Below are positions 4,592 to 64,000 of a stretch of DNA of 64,000 bases, piece by piece (within the stretch, counting starts at the first letter, position 1; every line of letters starts with the position of its first letter). The notes beneath the pieces were generated by a model, which was not told where the DNA came from, did no database searches, and saw nothing but the letters and a program-made list of their open reading frames with translations. Source of the DNA: Opitutaceae bacterium (GTDB lineage Bacteria; Verrucomicrobiota; Verrucomicrobiia; Opitutales; Opitutaceae); assembly GCA_030648295.1 (NCBI GenBank), contig JAUSID010000253.1:1-64000 (forward strand), given 5' to 3'. The position numbers and the translations under genes are program-made.

Positions 4592-5473
4592 ATGCGCGCT
4601 ACCTCTCACGTTTTTCGCTGGATCGGCCGCCACGGCCCGGTCCTGCTCCTCATGGTCCTTGCCGCCGCAAGTCCGGCCATCGGGGCCAGTCCTCGTCCGC
4701 CGGTACGGTTGACCCAAAGCGCCGCGCTGCCCAACAGCGGAGCGGGACTCGATTTCTACAAAATTGAAACCGAAGCGGCCACGTATTACCTGGAAAAATA
4801 CGGCGCCGCGCTGGCGTCGATGATCGATCGCGAAGGCCACGACTGGATCAGCTTTCGTTCCCAATCCGGCTCGCGCGCCGCCGGCGAGTTCCGCGGGTTT
4901 CCCAACGCCGTGCATGGGCAGACCCCCGGCTATTTTCACCCGCGCAATCAAAACACGGGCGAGGCTGTGACCAAGGTCGAGCGCGCCGGCCCTGAGCGCG
5001 TGACGATCTCGGCGGTGTCCGGCGGCGGATTATGGGCGTGTCGCTATGACTTCCTCCCGACGCACTGCACGTTCACGATGACGAAAATGCCGCCGGAGCA
5101 GAAATACTGGGTTCTCTACGAGGGTACTCCTGGCGGCAGTTACGACGACACCGACTGGTGGATGACGTCGGCGGTGAAGCAGCCGCAGGCGATGACGGTT
5201 AATCACGAGGGCGACATCCCGGCACCGGAATGGATCGCCTTCGGTGACCCAAAGCTGAAGCGCGTCATCTTCCTGCTGCATCACGAGGACGACCAGCATC
5301 CGGATCGGTTCTACCAGATGGACCGGCAGATGACGGTATTTGGCTTCGGCCGGATGCGCGGCGAGAAGCATCTGGCGACGGTGCCACGGCAATTTTCGAT
5401 CGGGTTTCTCGAAACGACGGCGCACGCGGAAATCGGTCGCGCGATGGAGAAGTTCGGCAAGCAGGCACAATAA
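4592..5473 (+). CDS. Secreted protein of unknown function, first gene of the sulfatase cluster
   Basis: 293 residues with a classical signal peptide (hydrophobic core LLLMVLAAASPAIG, cleavage after GAS or nearby). The mature part is rich in aromatic and charged residues (DDTDWWMTS, EWIAFGDPKLKR, FYQMDRQMTVFGFGRM) and appears beta-rich. No catalytic motif could be named with confidence. Its stop codon shares a base with an in-frame ATG of the next gene, so it is probably co-transcribed with the sulfatase and may act on the same polysaccharide. Confidence 0.7.
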   Translation: MRATSHVFRWIGRHGPVLLLMVLAAASPAIGASPRPPVRLTQSAALPNSGAGLDFYKIETEAATYYLEKYGAALASMIDREGHDWISFRSQSGSRAAGEFRGFPNAVHGQTPGYFHPRNQNTGEAVTKVERAGPERVTISAVSGGGLWACRYDFLPTHCTFTMTKMPPEQKYWVLYEGTPGGSYDDTDWWMTSAVKQPQAMTVNHEGDIPAPEWIAFGDPKLKRVIFLLHHEDDQHPDRFYQMDRQMTVFGFGRMRGEKHLATVPRQFSIGFLETTAHAEIGRAMEKFGKQAQ

Positions 5474-7137: not shown

Positions 7138-7144
7138 TCACGCC

Positions 7145-8509
7145 ATGAATGATTTCTTTTCGACGCTGAACCGAATCGGCGAACGCTGGTTTTGGGTTCT
7201 GCGTTTTGGGTTCTGGGTTCCATCGGCCGAACCCAAGACTCAAAACCCAAACCCCAAGACCAATTTCGGAAACGCCGTGCACACCTGGATACGATGCTGC
7301 GGAGTCAGTGTACTTTGCGCTGTCACGTCCACCATCGCGCACGCCGCCGCGCCGGCCGGCCACTTCCCAACCTGGAAACACCTCTCGAGCGCGAACGGCG
7401 ATCTGCCGAAGCCGAACGGCGGCAAGAACCAGACTTCGCTGCTGGTGCTCGATGTCGATCGCGACGGTTTGAACGACATCGTTGTCGCTGAACGGTCCGC
7501 TGCGCCCGCGGTCGTCTGGTTGCGCCGGGACAGGAGCGGCTGGACGCGCCACGTCATCGACGACGGGAAAGCTCCCATCGCCGCCGGGGGCACCTTTGGC
7601 GATGTAGACGGCGACGGCGATCTCGACGTCGTCTTCGGGTCCTCGGGTGCGGGCAGCAACGTGTGGTGGTGGGAGAATCCGCTGCCGCGCGGCGATCCGA
7701 AGACGCCGTGGGCGCGTCACGTAATTACGAATACGCAAAAGGGCCAGCACCATGACCAACTCGCCGGCGATTTCCTCGGCACGGGCAGGAACCAGGTTGT
7801 CTCCTGGTTTCAGGGCGCCGGCGAGCTTTCGCTGTTTACCGCGTCCGGCAATCCACGCGAGGCCACGGGCTGGTCACTCATCACCGTGGCGACGGGCCTG
7901 AAACGGGCTGAAGGCCTGGCGGCCGGCGACATCGATGGCGATGGCCAACGCGACATCGTCGGCGGCGGCCGCTGGTTCAAATACCTCGGCGGATCGAAAT
8001 TTGCGACCCATCTGATCGACGACGCGCAGACGCCCGGCCGTGCGGAGGTTGGCGATCTCGTGAAAGGAGGTCGTCCCGAAGTCGTGATGGTCATCGGCGA
8101 CGGCATCGGCCGTTTGAAGTGGTATGAGTGCGCCGGCGATCCGATGCAGACGGACGCCTGGCGCGCGCATGATCTGCTCGGCATCGATGTAAGGCAGGGC
8201 CACAGCCTGCAAATAGCGGATATCAACGCGGACGGGCACCCCGACATCTTCTGCGCGGAGATGACGCAACTGGCGAACGCGCCGGCCAACCCACAGTCGA
8301 AGGCATGGATTTTCTATGGCGACAGCCAGGGCAATTTTACCAAGACCGAGATCGCCACCGGGATTGACTTTCACGAAACGAAAGTCGTTGACGCAGATGG
8401 CGACGGCCGGCTCGACATCGTGAGCAAACCCTTCGTGTGGGAAACCCCGCGCATCGACGTGTGGTTGAATCAAGGTCCCACCGGCATGCCCAAAAAATCC
8501 AACGAATGA
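7145..8509 (+). CDS. Secreted FG-GAP/VCBS beta-propeller protein
   Basis: Open from ATG 7145 (454 residues), but codons 15-40 translate a tandem-repeat hairpin. The GTG at 7277 is directly followed by a good signal peptide (hydrophobic GVSVLCAVTSTIAHAAA), so the true start may be 7277 (410 residues). The mature part has at least five Ca-binding loops of the VCBS/FG-GAP type (DVDRDGLND, DVDGDGDLD, DIDGDGQRD, DINADGHPD, DADGDGRLD) spaced as in a seven-bladed propeller. No catalytic residues are evident; a binding or scaffold role outside the cell is likely. Its stop overlaps the start of the next gene. Confidence 0.8.
   Translation: MNDFFSTLNRIGERWFWVLRFGFWVPSAEPKTQNPNPKTNFGNAVHTWIRCCGVSVLCAVTSTIAHAAAPAGHFPTWKHLSSANGDLPKPNGGKNQTSLLVLDVDRDGLNDIVVAERSAAPAVVWLRRDRSGWTRHVIDDGKAPIAAGGTFGDVDGDGDLDVVFGSSGAGSNVWWWENPLPRGDPKTPWARHVITNTQKGQHHDQLAGDFLGTGRNQVVSWFQGAGELSLFTASGNPREATGWSLITVATGLKRAEGLAAGDIDGDGQRDIVGGGRWFKYLGGSKFATHLIDDAQTPGRAEVGDLVKGGRPEVVMVIGDGIGRLKWYECAGDPMQTDAWRAHDLLGIDVRQGHSLQIADINADGHPDIFCAEMTQLANAPANPQSKAWIFYGDSQGNFTKTEIATGIDFHETKVVDADGDGRLDIVSKPFVWETPRIDVWLNQGPTGMPKKSNE
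7188..7262. repeat. Inverted pair of 7-bp tandem-unit arrays
   Basis: Left arm 7188-7222: GGTTTTG, GGTTCTG, CGTTTTG, GGTTCTG, GGTTCCA. Right arm 7229-7262, read on the minus strand: GGTCTTG, GGGTTTG, GGTTTTG, AGTCTTG, GGTTCG. Both keep a strict period of 7 and together form a long imperfect hairpin. Confidence 0.85.
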
Positions 8510-20983: not shown

Positions 20984-21523
20984 ATGGCCAGTGCCCGGCT
21001 TATCATCGAGCAGCTCTGCGGCTGCGGTATCACCGATGTGGTGACACTGCCGGACAATGCCTCGAAGGCGCTTCTGGCCGGGCTGGCGGCGCGGGCGGAC
21101 ATCCGTGTCGTGGGCGTCACACGGGAAGGCGAAGCCTGGGCGGTGGCGTCGGGTTTGTGGATCGGTGGCCGTACCCCCGCGGTGCTGATCCAGAACACCG
21201 GTTTCCTGGAAAGCGGCGATGCCCTCCGGGGCACGGCCATGCGAATGCGCATCCCGCTGCTGTGCCTCCTGACCTATCGCGGCTACGCCACGCTGCCGGC
21301 GACGAAAGAACGGCTGGCATCTGCACCCGTCGACGGTCGGATGCTCAGCCGGCCGGAGATCGACTCCTGCGCGCTCCTGTTCGAACCAACACTCCAGGCG
21401 TGGGGCATGCCGTATGATTTTCTTCATGACGATGCCGACGTCGCGAAGATCCCGCTCACCGTCGAGGTGGCGCGGCTATGTGGGCATCCCGCGGCACTCC
21501 TCATTTCGCGCGACACGACATGA
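20984..21523 (+). CDS. TPP-dependent decarboxylase alpha (PYR-domain) subunit, sulfopyruvate/phosphonopyruvate type
   Basis: 179 residues from ATG 20984 (MASARLIIEQL). It matches the N-terminal pyrimidine-binding domain of ThDP enzymes as found in the alpha subunit (ComD) of sulfopyruvate decarboxylase: GCGITDVVTLPD, then VTREGEAWAVASGLWIGG with the Glu that activates the cofactor, and IQNTGFLESGDALRG. It forms a heteromer with the next gene product, with which it overlaps by ATGA. Known substrates of this group are sulfopyruvate and phosphonopyruvate; which one applies here is open, as no PEP mutase or coenzyme M gene is in the window. Confidence 0.8.
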   Translation: MASARLIIEQLCGCGITDVVTLPDNASKALLAGLAARADIRVVGVTREGEAWAVASGLWIGGRTPAVLIQNTGFLESGDALRGTAMRMRIPLLCLLTYRGYATLPATKERLASAPVDGRMLSRPEIDSCALLFEPTLQAWGMPYDFLHDDADVAKIPLTVEVARLCGHPAALLISRDTT

Positions 21524-22113
21524 TGACCAAGGACGAGGTCTTCGCTCCGCTGGCCCGGGTTCGCGGCGATGCCGTCGTGGTGACAACCATGGGGGCGGTG
21601 CGGCCGTGGGCCCGGCACTCGTCGAGCGCGCTCGATTTCGCGTCCGCGGACAGCGCGATGGGCCATGCGGCGGACCTGGCGCTGGGCCTTGCGCTCGCCC
21701 GGCCGGAGCGGAAGGTGATCTGCCTGAACGGCGACGGCAGCATGCTCATGTCACTGGGGACGCTGGTCACGATTGTCGCCGCCGGCGTGCGCAACCTGGT
21801 GCTGTTCGTCCTGGAAAACCGGACCTACGAAATCACGGGCAACCAGCCGGTCCCCGGCGCAGGTGCGGTCGATTTCGCCGCGCTGGCGCGGGGTGCCGGA
21901 TTCCGGCGCGTTTACGCTTTCGCGGAGGCGAACGATTACGCCGGGCACGTGGCCGAAGTGCTGCAGGGAGAAGGCCCAGTGCTGGTGGTCGCGGCCGTCG
22001 CTCCGGGGGACGACGGCCCGCTCCGCCGGGGCGCGACGGAATCCGAGCGCTACCTCCGGCCCTCGCTGGCGGAATCCGCGCACCAGATGCGGCGCGAGTT
22101 GGAAAAGACGTGA
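21520..22113 (+). CDS. TPP-dependent decarboxylase beta (PP-domain) subunit
   Basis: 197 residues from ATG 21520, overlapping the alpha subunit by four bases; the next codon (21523) is also ATG. The diphosphate-binding motif is complete: NGDGSMLMSLGT (about 70-81) followed by FVLENRTYEITGNQ, the GDG-x(25-30)-N Mg/TPP pattern. MGHAADLALGLALARP precedes it as in ComE-type subunits. With the alpha subunit it should form a complete ThDP decarboxylase in the cytoplasm. The cupin gene follows after about 140 bases. Confidence 0.85.
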   Translation: MMTKDEVFAPLARVRGDAVVVTTMGAVRPWARHSSSALDFASADSAMGHAADLALGLALARPERKVICLNGDGSMLMSLGTLVTIVAAGVRNLVLFVLENRTYEITGNQPVPGAGAVDFAALARGAGFRRVYAFAEANDYAGHVAEVLQGEGPVLVVAAVAPGDDGPLRRGATESERYLRPSLAESAHQMRRELEKT

Positions 22114-22164
22114 GGTCGCGGCGCATGATATGAACACGAGTGTTACTTCGGTACGGTTGCGCCG

Positions 22165-22199
22165 CCCTTTGCCCTTTGCTCTTTGCCCCCTGCCCTCAG
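22165..22199. repeat. 7-bp tandem-unit array (five units)
   Basis: CCCTTTG, CCCTTTG, CTCTTTG, CCCCCTG, CCCTCAG without interruption. It lies between the decarboxylase beta subunit and the cupin gene. Confidence 0.85.
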
Positions 22200-23049: not shown

Positions 23050-23197
23050 AACCGCGAATGAACGCGAATGGACGCAAATTCCAGCGGAGGAGGGAGAGAA
23101 TTGCCCAAGTGAAACCATGGTCACCGTTTGGTTGATCGTTTCCATGTACCCCAAAGACGCCCTCTCTATTCGCGTGAATTGGCGTCTATTCGTGGTT
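23050..23197. repeat. Inverted pair of 10-bp tandem-unit arrays
   Basis: 23050-23079: AACCGCGAAT, GAACGCGAAT, GGACGCAAAT. 23168-23197: ATTCGCGTGA, ATTGGCGTCT, ATTCGTGGTT, the same units on the other strand. Single-orientation copies occur at 60085-60114 and 63211-63240. Confidence 0.8.
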
Positions 23198-31165: not shown

Positions 31166-31739
31166 GTCGTATCCATTCAGCACCGACGCGGAAAACGCGT
31201 CGGGTCCGGGACCGCTAGCCGGGGAATTTCTTAACGCGGCACGGGGCCGCAACCAAAAGGGGTTACTCGGGTTCTTTCTCTTTCCTCTTTATCTTAATCT
31301 TTCTCGTCGAATGGTTCGTCCAAGCCGGAGAAAGAGTAAGATTAAGAGTAAGAGAAAGAGGAAATCGCCTCAAAGCTGCACGATCTGAATCGATATCAGC
31401 ACCCTCTGCTCCGCTGCGAACGCATAGCGTGTTCGCTTGTGCCGTGCGCTGGCGCGCGCTCCACCATTTCCCGGCTAAAGGGCCGCCGAAGAACCCAGTG
31501 GCGCGTCCGGCTCCGAGCATCGAGCTGGATTCTTCGCCAAGCCTCAGAATGACAAACCGGGAATTGTGTCGGGTCGCCGGGTAGTGCCGGCCGTTGGCCG
31601 CGACATCCGGCTCGTCGGGGGATACTTTCTTCGACGCGGCCACCGGCGCGGCATTGCACCGCGGCCGCGGGATGGGCAGCGTTGCCGGCACCAACGCCAA
31701 GGGAACGCCGAATACACGCAGGCTGGAAAAAAATGCGGG
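31166..31739. other. Gene-free region with repeats
   Basis: No convincing gene. Contains the 6-bp array hairpin (31272-31363) and, near 31530-31560, an ATTCTTCGCCAAGCCTCAGA element followed by ATGACAAA that resembles scattered short repeats in other bacterial genomes. The remainder has no feature I could name. Confidence 0.6.
31272..31363. repeat. Inverted pair of 6-bp tandem-unit arrays
   Basis: Left arm 31272-31305, pyrimidine-rich (TCTTTC/TCTTTC/CTCTTT/ATCTTA-type units). Right arm 31328-31363, purine-rich: GAAAGA, GTAAGA, TTAAGA, GTAAGA, GAAAGA. The arms are complementary and the unit length is 6. Confidence 0.8.
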
Positions 31740-55874: not shown

Positions 55875-56737
55875 ACGCTCCCGGCGTACTCCCTTTGGTA
55901 TTGCTGGCCCTGGCGCTCGCGCGTCCGGTGGCGGCGGCGCTGCAGACGGACATCGAGTTCGCCAATGTCGCCGGCGAAAGCCTGAAACTCGATGCGTATG
56001 TGCCGGAGGGCGCGGGGCCGTTTCCCGCCGTGATTCTCGTGCACGGCGGAGGATGGACGGCGGGCGACAAGTCGGGCGGGCCGAAGAAGGCGCTGATTGC
56101 GCCGATGCAGGAACCGCTGGAGCGCGCCGGCTTCGCGTGGTTTTCGATCAATTACCGGCTGGCGCCGAAACACCGGTACCCGGCGTGCATCGAAGATGTG
56201 GAGACGGCCATTCGGTGGGTGAAGGCCCACGCCGCCGGTTATCGCGTCGACCCCCGGCGGATCGCGCTCTCGGGCGAATCCGCCGGCGGACACCTCGTCG
56301 CGCTGGCGGCGGTGCGGGCTGACGAGAGCACGCGGCTGGCGGCAATCGTGCCGTTCTACGGCGTATTCGATCTGCCGGCGCGGGTGCAGCCGGGGGCCAC
56401 GCTGCTCGCGAATTACATCGCACTATTCGGCCGCGAGAGCGCCGATGCGGCGACGCTCGCGTTGCTGCGCGAAGCGTCGCCGCTGTCGCATGTGAAACGA
56501 GGACTGCCGCCGTTTCTGCTTGTACATGGCGACGCGGATACGCGGGTGCCGATTGCGCAATCGATCGCGATGCAGGCGCGGCTTCGTGCCGCCGGCGTGC
56601 CATGCGAACTGTTCACGATCAAGGGCGCCGGGCATGGCATGGCGGGCTGGACGGCCATCGCACCGGATTACAAGGAGCGCGTCGTCGCGTGGCTGATACG
56701 CACCCTCGGCACTCCACGCGCGAAAACGAAGTCGTGA
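55871..56737 (+). CDS. Secreted alpha/beta hydrolase, esterase/acetyl xylan esterase-like
   Basis: 288 residues from the GTG at 55871, which directly precedes a signal peptide (PLVLLALALARPVAAALQ); ATG 55778 would put unrelated residues in front. The oxyanion motif HGGGW is at 58-62, the nucleophile in SGESAGGH (Ser about 137), Asp in LVHGDADTRVP (about 222) and His in KGAGHGM (about 255). This is the BD-FAE/HSL-like carboxylesterase group, often removing acetyl or feruloyl groups from plant polysaccharides. Periplasmic or outer. Linked by overlap to the short frame before it. Confidence 0.85.
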   Translation: MNAPGVLPLVLLALALARPVAAALQTDIEFANVAGESLKLDAYVPEGAGPFPAVILVHGGGWTAGDKSGGPKKALIAPMQEPLERAGFAWFSINYRLAPKHRYPACIEDVETAIRWVKAHAAGYRVDPRRIALSGESAGGHLVALAAVRADESTRLAAIVPFYGVFDLPARVQPGATLLANYIALFGRESADAATLALLREASPLSHVKRGLPPFLLVHGDADTRVPIAQSIAMQARLRAAGVPCELFTIKGAGHGMAGWTAIAPDYKERVVAWLIRTLGTPRAKTKS

Positions 56738-56828: not shown

Positions 56829-56863
56829 CTGGTTCCTGGTCTCTGGTCTCTGGTCTCTGGTCC
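56829..56863. repeat. 7-bp tandem-unit array (five units)
   Basis: CTGGTTC, CTGGTCT, CTGGTCT, CTGGTCT, CTGGTCC, between the esterase and the next gene. Confidence 0.85.
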
Positions 56864-56956: not shown

Positions 56957-58147
56957 ATGAAACCTCCGCATTTTGTCGTCTCGTTCGCCGCTGTCGCGGC
57001 CGTTTGTTTGCCGCTCGTGCCCTCGCCGGTCCGCGCCGCCGAAATTCCGGCCGGCGTGTGGGTGCGCGACGGATACGAGCTGTCGGTTGCCGTCGAGGGA
57101 ATAAAAATCCCCCGCTTCCTCGCCGTTGGACCGAACAACACGCTGTTCGTCAGCGTGCCGAAGGAGGGGAAGATCATGGCCTGCCGCGACACCGATGGTG
57201 ACGGCAAATACGAAACGCAGACGCCGTTCGTCACGGGCAAGGAGCCCAACACCATTTTGCAGGGGATGCAGTGGCACGACGGCTGGCTGTGGTTCGCGCA
57301 GCTCAATGCGATCTCTCGCGCCCGCGATACGAACGGCAACGGCAAGGCGGACGAGGTGGTGCCGGTGCTGGGCGCCGAGCAGCTGCCGACCGGCGCCCGC
57401 GGCGGTCACATGTGGCGGGCGCTGTTAATCCACAATGGCCGAATTTATACGCAGGTCGGCGACCAGACGAACGTGACGGACGAGCCGATCGAGGCCTCCG
57501 AGCGCAAAAAGATCTGGACCTTCGCGCTGGATGGTTCGGACAAAAAACTGTTCGCGACCGGCCTCCGCAACACCGAGAAACTGGTCGTCCGCCCCGGGAC
57601 CGACGAAATCTGGGGTGTCGATCACGACATCGACCTCATGGCGGCAAAACTGGAAGGCGACCGCAAGTTCGGCCAGCCAATCACCGACCATAATCCGCCC
57701 GCGGAACTCAACCACTATGTCGAAGGCAAATTCTACGGACACCCATGGATCCTCGGAAAAAACCAGCCGAACCTGGCTCTCCTGACCGAACCCCGGCTAA
57801 TCGAGTACGCCAGCATGACGACAATCCCGGAATGGTTGATGGCCGCCCACTGTTCGGCCAATTCACTGACCTTCTATAACGGCGACAAAATCCCGCATGC
57901 GAACGGCGACGTGTTCGTCGCGCAACGCGGCGGCTGGAACTCCACCGCGAAGGTTGGCTACTGCCTGTCGCGGATCCTGTTCGAGAACGGTCATCCCTAC
58001 GGCGAGCAGAAGATGGTCAACTTTTTGAAGAATGGCACCGAGATCCTCGGCCGTCCCGTCGACTGCACGCAGGCCACCGATGGTTCGCTGCTCTTCAGCG
58101 ACGACTTCGGCCACAAGGTCTATCGGTTGAAATATGTAGGAAAGTAG
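56957..58147 (+). CDS. Secreted sorbosone/glucose dehydrogenase-like beta-propeller protein
   Basis: 396 residues; signal peptide VVSFAAVAAVCLPLVPSPVRAA. Propeller motifs fit the soluble PQQ-dependent glucose/sorbosone dehydrogenase family: IPRFLAVGPNNTLFVSVPKEG, a Ca-type loop CRDTDGDGKYET, ARDTNGNGKADE, GLRNTEKLVVRPGTDEIWGVDHDIDLM (in two pieces) and a final TDGSLLFSDDFGHKVYRLKY. Such proteins oxidise sugars at the periplasmic face; the PQQ ligands cannot be proved by eye. No cytochrome domain follows, unlike larger PVC-type homologues. A strong hairpin overlaps its stop codon. Confidence 0.75.
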   Translation: MKPPHFVVSFAAVAAVCLPLVPSPVRAAEIPAGVWVRDGYELSVAVEGIKIPRFLAVGPNNTLFVSVPKEGKIMACRDTDGDGKYETQTPFVTGKEPNTILQGMQWHDGWLWFAQLNAISRARDTNGNGKADEVVPVLGAEQLPTGARGGHMWRALLIHNGRIYTQVGDQTNVTDEPIEASERKKIWTFALDGSDKKLFATGLRNTEKLVVRPGTDEIWGVDHDIDLMAAKLEGDRKFGQPITDHNPPAELNHYVEGKFYGHPWILGKNQPNLALLTEPRLIEYASMTTIPEWLMAAHCSANSLTFYNGDKIPHANGDVFVAQRGGWNSTAKVGYCLSRILFENGHPYGEQKMVNFLKNGTEILGRPVDCTQATDGSLLFSDDFGHKVYRLKYVGK

Positions 58148-58174
58148 CGCGCGGCGCGGCGCAACGCCGCGCGC
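58147..58174. terminator. GC-rich hairpin at the end of the dehydrogenase-like gene
   Basis: Arms CGCGCGGCG (58148-58156) and CGCCGCGCG (58165-58173), loop CGGCGCAA. It starts at the stop codon; no T-run, but directly followed by a 7-bp array. Confidence 0.5.
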
Positions 58175-58216
58175 GGTTCTGGGTTCTGGGTTCTGAGTTT
58201 CGGGTTTCGCGTTTCG
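58175..58216. repeat. 7-bp tandem-unit array (six units)
   Basis: GGTTCTG, GGTTCTG, GGTTCTG, AGTTTCG, GGTTTCG, CGTTTCG, directly after the hairpin at 58147. Confidence 0.9.
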
Positions 58217-58302
58217 CGTTAAAGATTCTGCGCCCTGGATTCTGGGCAGCAGCCGCAGCGCACCGCACCTCGGGTCTAGTGATTGCCTCTGTCCCGCCCT
58301 CC

Positions 58303-58344
58303 GTCGTCTGACCTCTGACCTCTGACCTCTGACCTCTGGCCTCT
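58303..58344. repeat. 7-bp tandem-unit array (six units)
   Basis: GTCGTCT, then GACCTCT four times, then GGCCTCT. It ends just before the stop codon of the minus-strand gene at 58354. Confidence 0.9.
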
Positions 58345-58353
58345 CCGATCCGG

Positions 58354-58965
58354 CTACGCCTTCCGTTTCGCCTTCGGAACGGCACCGCCAGCCGCAGGCG
58401 CCTCGATCATCGTCATCCGCAGGCCCATTCCCTTCGGCGGCGCATCATGAATCGGATGGCCGAGATGGCCGGGGTTGAATCCGACTTTGCGTGGGTCACT
58501 CGCGTCCGGTTTGATCGGCAGATAGGTCAGCACGAACCGGCCTTTAACCGGATCGGTCGGCTCGATCTTCACGCGCTGGGTGGCCAGGAGCTTTGCAAAC
58601 AGCGCGTCGAGCGCGGCGGAATTTTTAGCGTACTCCGGCACCTCGAACTTGAGCGAGACCGTGAACGGCCCCTGATCCATGATCGTCTGTGCGATGAGGT
58701 GACTGGCGATCACGTGCGTGTCGAACGCGACACGCACATAACCGCTTGTCGGCGTGAGTTCCTTCACCCCCGTAACACTCGGCAGCTTTGATATGGCCGC
58801 GGTGATCGCGGCGACCTGGGACGCATTGCTGACGCCCGCGACGTAGAACGTCTTGTTGATCGGATGGGGCACGAGTGCCGTCTTCCCGGCTTTTTCCGCC
58901 GCGCCGGCACCGTGGAGAAACATCAGCGCCAGGACCGCCGTCATCGCGTGCAAAAAAATCTTCAT
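58354..58965 (-). CDS. Small secreted protein with HMA-like fold, no CxxC
   Basis: 203 residues from ATG 58965; signal peptide FLHAMTAVLALMFLHGAGAA. Residues about 30-100 have the beta-alpha-beta-beta-alpha-beta rhythm of heavy-metal-associated domains (NKTFYVAGVSNASQVAAITA, LPSVTGVKELTPTSGYVRVA, FDTHVIASHLIAQTIMDQG), but the metal-binding CxxC is missing. The rest (VSLKFEVPEYAKNSAALDAL) may be a second copy of the fold. The C-terminus is Lys/Arg-rich. Function unknown; a structural or binding role in the periplasm is likely. Confidence 0.6.
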   Translation of the reverse strand: MKIFLHAMTAVLALMFLHGAGAAEKAGKTALVPHPINKTFYVAGVSNASQVAAITAAISKLPSVTGVKELTPTSGYVRVAFDTHVIASHLIAQTIMDQGPFTVSLKFEVPEYAKNSAALDALFAKLLATQRVKIEPTDPVKGRFVLTYLPIKPDASDPRKVGFNPGHLGHPIHDAPPKGMGLRMTMIEAPAAGGAVPKAKRKA

Positions 58966-59044
58966 GGGGATTTCAGGGGATCGGGCCCGACCGTCGGGCA
59001 CCCTGCACGTCGTCGAAATCCGGCGAGGTAGTCAACTGTGAGGG

Positions 59045-59124
59045 CGGAGCGACGGAGGAGCGGAGACGCGGAGGAGCGGAGGAGCGGAGGGGCAGAGGGG
59101 CGGATGATCGGATGATCGGGCGCG
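59045..59124. repeat. 8-bp tandem-unit array (ten units)
   Basis: Ten consecutive octamers beginning with C: CGGAGCGA, CGGAGGAG, CGGAGACG, CGGAGGAG, CGGAGGAG, CGGAGGGG, CAGAGGGG, CGGATGAT, CGGATGAT, CGGGCGCG. The first units are purine-rich; the last ones drift. Confidence 0.9.
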
Positions 59125-59954: not shown

Positions 59955-60312
59955 GTTCAGCTAATCCGGCGCATTGGTTGTCAGATTCCCCCGCCAGTCA
60001 ACCGGCGTCGGTGCGCACGCGTTGCCGATCTCGCACCAAAAGTTGGCCGCCGCGGTCGCGGCAGTGATATCCCTTGCCCGCCGAATTCGCGTTTATTCGC
60101 GTCCATTCGCGGTTTCCACGCTGGATTTCGTGGTTCGCTCCGCGGTTCGTCGTCCGGAAATTCGGGGCACAATCAACTCGCCACTGCATGGGAATATCTG
60201 GAATGATCGCGTCACACCCCGCAGACGACCCCATGAACCAGCCGAGCCACCGCCGTGAATTCATCGGTTGTTTCGCGGTGCTCCCCTCCTGTTATCCAAT
60301 CTCGATCACATC
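59955..60312. other. Gene-poor region with a 10-bp array and a Tat-signal relic
   Basis: Between the PAS gene and the oxidoreductase lie a three-unit 10-bp array (60085-60114) and the short Tat-like frame at 60233. Otherwise no feature seen. Confidence 0.6.
60085..60114. repeat. 10-bp tandem-unit array (three units)
   Basis: ATTCGCGTTT, ATTCGCGTCC, ATTCGCGGTT. Confidence 0.8.
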
Positions 60313-63176: not shown

Positions 63177-63210
63177 TGACGGATCAACCTCATGCCGATC
63201 GAAGCGAGTC

Positions 63211-63240
63211 ATTGGCGTCCATTCGCGTTCATTCGCGGTT
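63211..63240. repeat. 10-bp tandem-unit array (three units)
   Basis: ATTGGCGTCC, ATTCGCGTTC, ATTCGCGGTT, like the arrays at 23168 and 60085. Confidence 0.8.
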
Positions 63241-63252
63241 AATTCTCCGCCG

Positions 63253-63273
63253 ATCCGGTATCCGGTATCCGGT
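63253..63273. repeat. 7-bp tandem-unit array (three units)
   Basis: ATCCGGT three times, ending six bases before the phosphofructokinase stop. Confidence 0.75.
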
Positions 63274-63278
63274 TTCGC

Positions 63279-64000
63279 CTAGTCGCCCAGGCTGATGCCG
63301 AGATCGCGGGCCGTGCGCAGGATGTCGCCATCGATGGGTACGCGGCGAAGTTTTCCGACGGCCTCCTTGATCGGCACGGCGTCCGTGTCCGGCGGGCGCA
63401 AGGCGACCATCATGCCGTATTGCTCCTCCGCGATCAGCCGCACCGCGCGTACCCCAAATCGGGTACACAACAGCCGGTCGAACGTGGTCGGAGCGCCGCC
63501 ACGTTGCAGGTGCCCGAGCACGCACACGCGCGTTTCCTTGCCCGTTCGCTTGGCGATCTCCGTCGCCACGGCCGCGCCGATGCCGCCCAGCCGCGCCTCG
63601 CGGATTGCGCCCGATGATCCCTGCGTCACGAAATCGCGTCCCGCCTCGCGCGCACCCTCCGCCACGGCCACCAGCGTGAAGCGTTTCCCCTCCCCTTCCC
63701 GCTCGGTGATCTTCCGGCAGATGCTGTCGTAATTGAACGGGATCTCGGGAATCAGGATGACGTCCGCGCCGCCCGCGATGCCGGAATGCGCCGTGATCCA
63801 GCCGGCGTAGCGTCCCATCATTTCGCATACGATCACGCGATTGTGGCTCTGGGCCGTCGTGCGCAACCGATCGAGGGCATCGGTGGCGAACGCGACCGCG
63901 CTGTCGAAACCGAACGTGATCACCGTGCCCTCGAGATCGTTGTCGATCGTCTTCGGCACGCCGACGATCGGGATGCCGTGCTCGAGGCATTGCTGCGCGA
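63279..64000 (-). CDS. pfkA: 6-phosphofructokinase, 3' part (5' end outside the window)
   Basis: About 240 C-terminal residues; the gene continues past position 64000. Phosphofructokinase motifs: GIPIVGVPKTIDNDLEGTVI (start of catalytic loop with TIDND), NRVIVCEMMGRYAGWITAHSG (in two pieces), VLIPEIPFNYD, VVAVAEGA-like LVAVAEGAREAG, and GHLQRGGAPTTFDR near the C-terminus. It phosphorylates fructose 6-phosphate in glycolysis. The residue after GVP is Lys (PKTIDND) where E. coli PfkA has Gly (PGTIDND). That Lys occurs in PPi-dependent and 'mixed' clade X enzymes, so the phosphoryl donor is open; the second deciding residue is outside the window. Confidence 0.9.
   Translation of the reverse strand, partial: AQQCLEHGIPIVGVPKTIDNDLEGTVITFGFDSAVAFATDALDRLRTTAQSHNRVIVCEMMGRYAGWITAHSGIAGGADVILIPEIPFNYDSICRKITEREGEGKRFTLVAVAEGAREAGRDFVTQGSSGAIREARLGGIGAAVATEIAKRTGKETRVCVLGHLQRGGAPTTFDRLLCTRFGVRAVRLIAEEQYGMMVALRPPDTDAVPIKEAVGKLRRVPIDGDILRTARDLGISLGD

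Follow-up and report, generated by a model that had tools for sequence, protein, structure and literature searches.

Opposed heptamer arrays downstream of a sulfatase gene

The window analysed here, a stretch of 64,000 nucleotides, lies at the start of a 139-kb contig; the draft genome it belongs to measures 9.1 Mb and has 294 contigs. Between positions 5473 and 9735 it carries a sulfatase gene followed by two co-directional FG-GAP repeat protein genes. Starting 50 bp 3' of the sulfatase stop codon, two opposed period-7 arrays with the ability to pair were read directly from the sequence (7188-7220 and about 7228-7263). The layout is GGTTTTGGGTTCTGCGTTTTGGGTTCTGGGTTCC, then a short loop, then a degenerate inverted copy:

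7188..7220, plus strand: left arm, a degenerate TTCTGGG-family array with its T-rich strand oriented like the sulfatase gene
7221..7227, no strand: loop separating the arms (from the sequence read and the fold)
about 7228..7263, minus strand: right arm, a weaker inverted TTCTGGG-family array (from the segment scan)

The left arm was returned by TRF as unit GGTTCTG in 4.7 copies with 80% matches. It scored 11 in the period-7 segment scan and the right arm only 8. Aligned with the reverse complement of its partner, the left arm has identical bases at 26 of 34 positions, as counted by hand. The RNA fold of positions 7138-7300 reached −54.6 kcal/mol (z −2.81), with 2 of 200 dinucleotide shuffles equally or more stable. 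In a stem scan of array edges no GC-rich stem was found preceding the 7188 array, and the hairpin is built from both arrays. A search of the window gave no match to known RNA families at the gathering score.

The reading frame stays open from the ATG at 7145 across both arrays. The first-pass annotation had remarked that the hairpin decides the start codon of the downstream gene; the remark is plausible, a start resembling a signal peptide being seen by eye at the GTG at 7277, 3' of both arrays.

That annotation had also named five further heptamer arrays in the window. The hairpin and these arrays were borne out by TRF, which gave period-7 rows at all five places, and by the period scans. The arrays, and a stem adjoining one of them (its coordinates worked out by hand from the stem listing), are as follows:

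22164..22186, plus strand: period-7 array, unit GCCCTTT (score 13), 50 bp past the stop of called gene 21520-22113
56829..56862, plus strand: period-7 array, unit CTGGTCT (score 21), 91 bp past the stop of called gene 55901-56737
58147..58174, plus strand: perfect GC-rich hairpin, from the last stop-codon base of gene 57017-58147 up to the next array
58175..58220, plus strand: TTCTGGG-family array turning in register into a TTTCGCG-family array (score 24)
58307..58344, plus strand: period-7 array, unit CTGACCT (score 28), 9 bp from the stop of minus-strand called gene 58354-58965
63253..63273, plus strand: three perfect copies of ATCCGGT (score 14), 5 bp from the stop of minus-strand called gene 63279-63998

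Each of the six window arrays has the stop codon of a called gene no more than 100 bp away. Markov shuffles of the window contained on average 0.35 segments scoring ≥ 10 and 0.015 scoring ≥ 12, compared with 6 and 5 in the real window. At this shuffle rate per 64 kb, the 7188 array is marginal when taken singly, whereas the set of six is not. It is the weakest of the six, and its support comes from the genome-wide set.

Genome-wide abundance and preferred period

Intergenic segments in a 1.13-Mb sample of the genome, selected in part through earlier hits, numbered 80 at period 7, 28 at period 8, 17 at period 9, 12 at period 10, 7 at period 6 and 0 at period 11, with no more than one in the shuffled sample at any of these periods. 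Periods 3-5 showed no expansion in the same sample. At period 7, 11 coding segments were found in addition to the 80 intergenic ones and none after shuffling, intergenic DNA making up 19% of the sample. A held-out part of 318 kb, which contains no TTCTGGG-class array, gave 11 intergenic, 1 coding and 0 shuffled segments at period 7, and 8 intergenic segments at period 9. The comparison with shuffled DNA that the first-pass annotation had proposed recovers a mainly intergenic class far above shuffles; the test named there as able to refute it, by no excess or by arrays conserved as protein-coding sequence, leaves it standing. The exact 7-bp period holds as described but is not exclusive, periods 8 to 10 being enriched too.

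Density is given separately for contigs picked by number (20 kb from the start of each of C1-C24, C26-C42, C44, C46, and C48) and for those sampled owing to earlier hits or to the window (C92, C17, C23, C158, C150, C202, C292, and the rest of the window contig). In the former, 689 kb yielded 24 intergenic arrays of period 7 and shuffled DNA none; this density of 34.8 per Mb extrapolates to about 320 per genome. The latter had 80.2 per Mb. The by-number density is biased low because four contigs with known TTNYGGG matches (C25, C43, C45, and C47) were left out. Three tandem copies of TTNYGGG were matched at 109 places in the genome (overlapping places counted singly), compared with 8 for the backwards control. 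With tandem 7-bp units above chance and an extragenic excess, the arrays belong to the broad class of heptameric simple sequence repeats of bacteria.

Unit families and inverted partners

The 74 merged arrays comprise 37 rotation classes, of which 15 occur on at least 2 of 16 contigs. The arrays had been described as having a fixed period and a free unit; a preferred period of 7 with many units is indeed found, but the unit is not free, as families recur. Within arrays, neighbouring units differ on average at 0.96 of 7 bases and units 18 apart at 3.82, and some arrays pass from one family to another in register (for example L088:19149-19308). Exact strings of ≥ 20 nt are common to 96 of 2419 unlinked array pairs, compared with 43 to 45 when shuffled, and strings of ≥ 32 nt to 7 of 2419, compared with 1.25 for unit shuffles and 2.25 for column shuffles.

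As to the four intact G-runs of a G-quadruplex, considered in view of the G-rich repeats of Xanthomonas and Nostoc, the TTCTGGG family could contribute GGG runs; in the unit list, most other classes lack such a run on one strand. Two candidate rules for the choice of unit were rejected. Avoidance of self-structure gave a mean percentile against base permutations of 0.52 for the units of this genome (P 0.54) and 0.55 for all classes (P 0.08). A T-free strand was found in 44 of 74 units of this genome versus 19.7 expected, yet in other genomes in only 15 of 70 versus 13.7.

Partner tests kept the arrays away from stretch ends (49 of 74, and 5 of 11 held-out). An inverted look-alike lies within 300 bp of 16/49 arrays versus 1/49 at a distance of 2.8-3.1 kb, and a direct look-alike lies near 11/49 versus 2/49. 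Inverted partners among the held-out arrays numbered 3/5 versus 1/5. Seventeen inverted pairs were found and 16 scored, the 7188 pair falling under the cut-off of the partner-match test; partners are more alike than arrays of one family at other sites (mean percentile 0.83, n = 16, P 5e-4). This closer likeness of inverted partners looks new. It fits fold-back copying and equally selection for hairpin pairing.

Position relative to genes

Genes were called by a purpose-written script, a non-standard caller, and 7 of the 74 arrays (2 of 11 held-out) had no gap placement. A stop codon lies within 60 bp of 39/67 placed arrays, compared with 10.9 ± 3.0 expected, and a start codon within 60 bp of 11/67, compared with 12.4 expected. 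Convergent gaps hold 25 of the 67 (10.7 expected) and divergent gaps 4 (23.6 expected). When arrays were kept within their own gap, 41/72 were near a stop, compared with 31.7 ± 3.2 (P 0.0045). Period-8 to -10 arrays in the same genome serve as an internal control for position: 9 of these are convergent and 19 divergent, versus 27 and 4 at period 7 (Fisher P 1.7e-5).

Stop proximity was also seen in the held-out arrays (5/9 versus 1.5 ± 1.1 expected, P 0.008), of which 3 lay in convergent gaps, with 1.1 expected, and none in divergent gaps, with 2.3 expected, each non-significant alone; held-out period-9 arrays were 2 convergent and 6 co-directional. With a cruder gene caller, the convergent excess in this genome was nearly gone (10/37, or 27%, versus 25.6% of gap length), and the divergent share was 16% versus 25.6% of gap length. 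In stretches from other genomes, at least 118 in number, the cruder caller placed 27/89 arrays (30%) in convergent gaps versus 19%, and 11% in divergent gaps versus 24%. Among the stretches listed from other genomes, 78 array edges within 100 bp face a stop and 41 face a start. The closeness of period-7 arrays to stop codons and their rarity between divergent genes, unlike period-8 to -10 arrays, look new.

TTCTGGG-family arrays and their hairpins

Scored along the T-rich strand, a perfect GC-rich stem (score ≥ 15) adjoins the 5' edge of 27/54 TTCTGGG-family arrays and the 3' edge of 4/54, these 54 arrays coming partly from loci fetched by TTCTGGG or junction patterns. Such stems occur in 16.7% of random intergenic windows and 18% of post-stop windows. 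The GC-rich hairpin after a stop codon by which an intrinsic terminator is recognised is present in only this half of the family. The stems vary in sequence, and some have TTCG loops. Gene context was available for 48 arrays: 29 lie behind a co-directional gene (28 of them ≤ 100 bp from its stop), 15 behind an opposite gene (9 ≤ 100 bp) and 4 within a called gene. All 15 hairpin-led co-directional arrays lie ≤ 51 bp from the stop.

The junction TTYTGRG-TTTCGVG occurs 23 times and the reversed order 8 times, the latter counted with a fair pattern (one two bases longer than the forward pattern gave 3). For families defined after viewing the sequences, 44 of 51 ordered pairs over 26 chains fit one order; the chain-flip control gave 39.5 ± 1.6, with a maximum of 43 in 60 trials. 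What looks new here is a polar module of stop codon, GC-rich hairpin (in half of cases), TTCTGGG array and often TTTCGCG array. Some arrays in G004, G006, and G008, three genomes of the same genus, likewise lie behind GC-rich stretches by eye.

As a general rule the hairpin-led layout fails. No hairpin excess was found over all families pooled (17% versus 15%, n = 70, four of the 74 arrays without A/T bias being left out), nor across phyla, where among the stretches listed 8/168 arrays had the hairpin upstream and 12/168 downstream. Strong post-stop hairpins were followed by TTTT in 12/114 cases and by GTT-like sequence in 7/114. After the listed hairpins of the TTCTGGG family, viewed by eye and uncounted, GGTTCT or a similar sequence usually comes next, with no run of four or more T.

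Distribution in other genomes

The comparison with related genomes for gain and loss, also proposed in the first-pass annotation, found genus-mates with no families, few families or different ones. Matches to three copies of TTNYGGG numbered 17 in G008, 12 in G004, 10 in G006, 2 in G003 and 0 in the other 22 genomes of the genus. Three copies of CTGACNT were matched 154 times here, 55 times in G022, once in G017 and never in the other 24 of 27 genomes, and G022, with its 55 matches, has zero matches to TTNYGGG. Stretches of eight genus-mates (700 kb) contained 9 period-7 segments, mostly of other units; measured in the same way, 689 kb of the present genome contained 30. Gain and loss of unit families between species is supported.

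Genomes from many phyla carry four copies of RAACCCR, in at least 118 stretches altogether. By record titles, the matches listed include Bacteroidetes, Planctomycetota, Kiritimatiellae, Lentisphaerae, Verrucomicrobia, Chloroflexi, Acidobacteria, Proteobacteria, Actinobacteria, Cyanobacteria, and others. With the matches themselves masked, these stretches (at least 118) held 72 more period-7 islands, many with other units, as well as 11 islands at period 8 and 7 at period 9; shuffles gave none. Since this pattern occurs in many phyla together with islands of varied units, the combination of a preferred period and varied units is broad in bacteria, and it is unusually dense in this genome. Four copies of TTYYGGG were matched in 5 of 387 genomes of a phylum sample.

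Several further occurrences were recorded. RAACCCR arrays of four copies are present in 28 stretches of contigs classed as viral (L297-L324). In G265, of the same class, TTYYGGG in four copies had 0 matches and its backwards control 14, which suggests another heptamer family. G254, of the same phylum, has dense period-7 arrays at L174:7704-7802 and L174:15726-15844, and one of these arrays changes from AAACCCG-type units to units of the GAACACC type while keeping its register.

Origin and possible role

We give about an even chance to these being lineage-specific heptameric repeats that grow by register-keeping slippage, are copied between 3' gene ends and are partly folded back. The 7188 pair would then consist of inverted degenerate TTCTGGG-family arrays, one of several lineage-expanded period-7 families. 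Replication slippage would add units in steps of one unit, and the period would therefore be kept while substitutions spread locally. Blocks would be copied onto other 3' gene ends, a block sometimes folding back through template switching to give an inverted neighbour, and selection would clear coding and promoter DNA of arrays. At 7188 the sulfatase and FG-GAP genes would be left with a long, imperfect hairpin between them, which may end or weaken transcription, incidentally or usefully. In favour of this reading are the period spectrum, the in-register drift of units, the long strings common to unlinked arrays, the nearness to stop codons, the inverted neighbours and their mutual likeness, and the lineage specificity; the loss of the convergent excess with the cruder caller counts against it. 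Plain slippage leaves unexplained the recurrence of unit families at unlinked sites and the preferred family order.

The 5' placement of GC-rich stems in the TTCTGGG family, the 28 of 48 arrays within 100 bp past a co-directional stop (9 near an opposite gene), the stop proximity and divergent-gap rarity at period 7 that are absent at periods 8-10, and the fold of 7138-7300 would also be expected of functional 3'-end elements, in which a hairpin plus array, or paired arrays, terminates transcription or sets mRNA 3' ends. The array would replace the U-tract, and inverted pairs would work bidirectionally between convergent genes. We consider this possible but rather unlikely, given that the hairpin excess is absent for pooled families and across phyla, that U-tract terminators coexist in this genome (the 12/114 above) and that genus-mates mostly do without arrays. 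Slightly more doubtful is a new polar modular 3'-end element of stop codon, sequence-variable GC hairpin and ordered heptamer modules (TTCTGGG, TTTCGCG, CTGACNT, then others), which would spread as blocks and govern transcript ends, its period coming from the copying machinery and not from the sequence. A hairpin-array module acting at transcript ends would be an unusual, expandable 3'-end element.

Movement in trans by a transposase, as REP elements are moved by RAYT (Y1_Tnp) proteins, is improbable. The arrays are dispersed, often inverted and lineage-specific, and 11 Y1_Tnp matches occur in this genome, but among genus-mates the number of such matches does not follow that of TTNYGGG arrays (23 versus 2 in G003, 1 versus 17 in G008, and 13 versus 0 in G022), and similar flanks, in the first 40 of 337 rows, were other repeat arrays. 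Passive expansion through lost mismatch repair would suit a repeat-rich genome among repeat-poor genus-mates; it is the least probable account, since loss of MutS was rejected on a full MutS_V match here (E 1.2e-86), some match exists in 25 of 27 genomes of the genus, and periods 3-5 are not expanded. In a genome where dozens of unit classes have one period in common, what causes the period can be told apart from what causes the sequence.

Relation to known repeats

STRR heptamers are known from heterocystous cyanobacteria, where, as here, there are several heptamers per organism; the units of the present arrays are degenerate. REP elements have a conserved palindromic core. REP and BIME elements resemble the arrays in being dispersed intergenic inverted repeats, but in the present arrays it is the period that stays constant, the sequence differing between families, and array counts do not follow Y1_Tnp number; an identity as REP elements with RAYT was rejected on these two grounds.

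The accessible part of PMC4692102 describes, for Xanthomonas and Nostoc, a single heptamer family in each organism (GGGNATC / GGGGA(C/T)T), inverted heptamer pairs numbering 70 and 75 in two genomes of Xanthomonas, and, as cited work, three Calothrix heptamers and a 2007 observation of heptamer excess with the idea of polymerase slippage. Those repeats share with the present ones the period of 7, dispersal, a mainly intergenic location nearer the upstream gene, scarcity between divergent genes and the occurrence of inverted pairs. They differ in that one G-rich family prefers four units, whereas here there are dozens of classes, drift between families and a hairpin-led polar module; GGGNATC and GGGGAYT are absent from the 37 rotation classes. 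Heptamers are the favoured long simple repeat of bacteria.

TAACTGA repeats of Beggiatoaceae, Cyanobacteria, and Bacteroidetes are likewise intergenic heptamers, patchy across phyla, but as far as the available sections go they have one fixed unit with single-base variants rarely repeated and lie mostly just before start codons, whereas here units vary and lie mostly 3' of stop codons (PMC4679880). In the Nostoc trnL intron two heptamer classes form one stem by pairing of arrays, different units serving a single structural role; this is a single locus, and the sections available contain no description of a hairpin-led 3'-end layout (PMC4476775). Neither many one-period families per genome nor a hairpin-led polar layout appears in the accessible portions of PMC4692102, PMC4679880, PMC12699852, PMC4476775, PMC9879509, PMC4060949, or PMC4666352. 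In openly licensed literature no paper on heptanucleotide tandem repeats of Verrucomicrobia was found, and matches to the unit strings were, by title, on immunology or plant telomeres.

The proposal of a new element class is only partly right, heptamer arrays including inverted pairs being published (PMC4692102) and RAACCCR arrays occurring in the at least 118 stretches above. The feature is real and of a known kind, and the variant, many unit families in one genome, looks new.

Arrays of other periods

In the window, period-10 arrays with a CATTCGCGTY-type unit lie at 23053-23079, 60085-60111, and 63210-63237; this family, defined after viewing the sequences, has 23 places in the 1.13-Mb sample. 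A degenerate period-8 array with a unit near GAGGAGCG occupies 59040-59122, and a period-6 array with a unit near GAGTAA occupies 31326-31365. Elsewhere in the sequences scanned, L010:10337-10425 and 14 more islands are period-9 arrays with TCTTCCNNG-type units, some of them with inverted partners.
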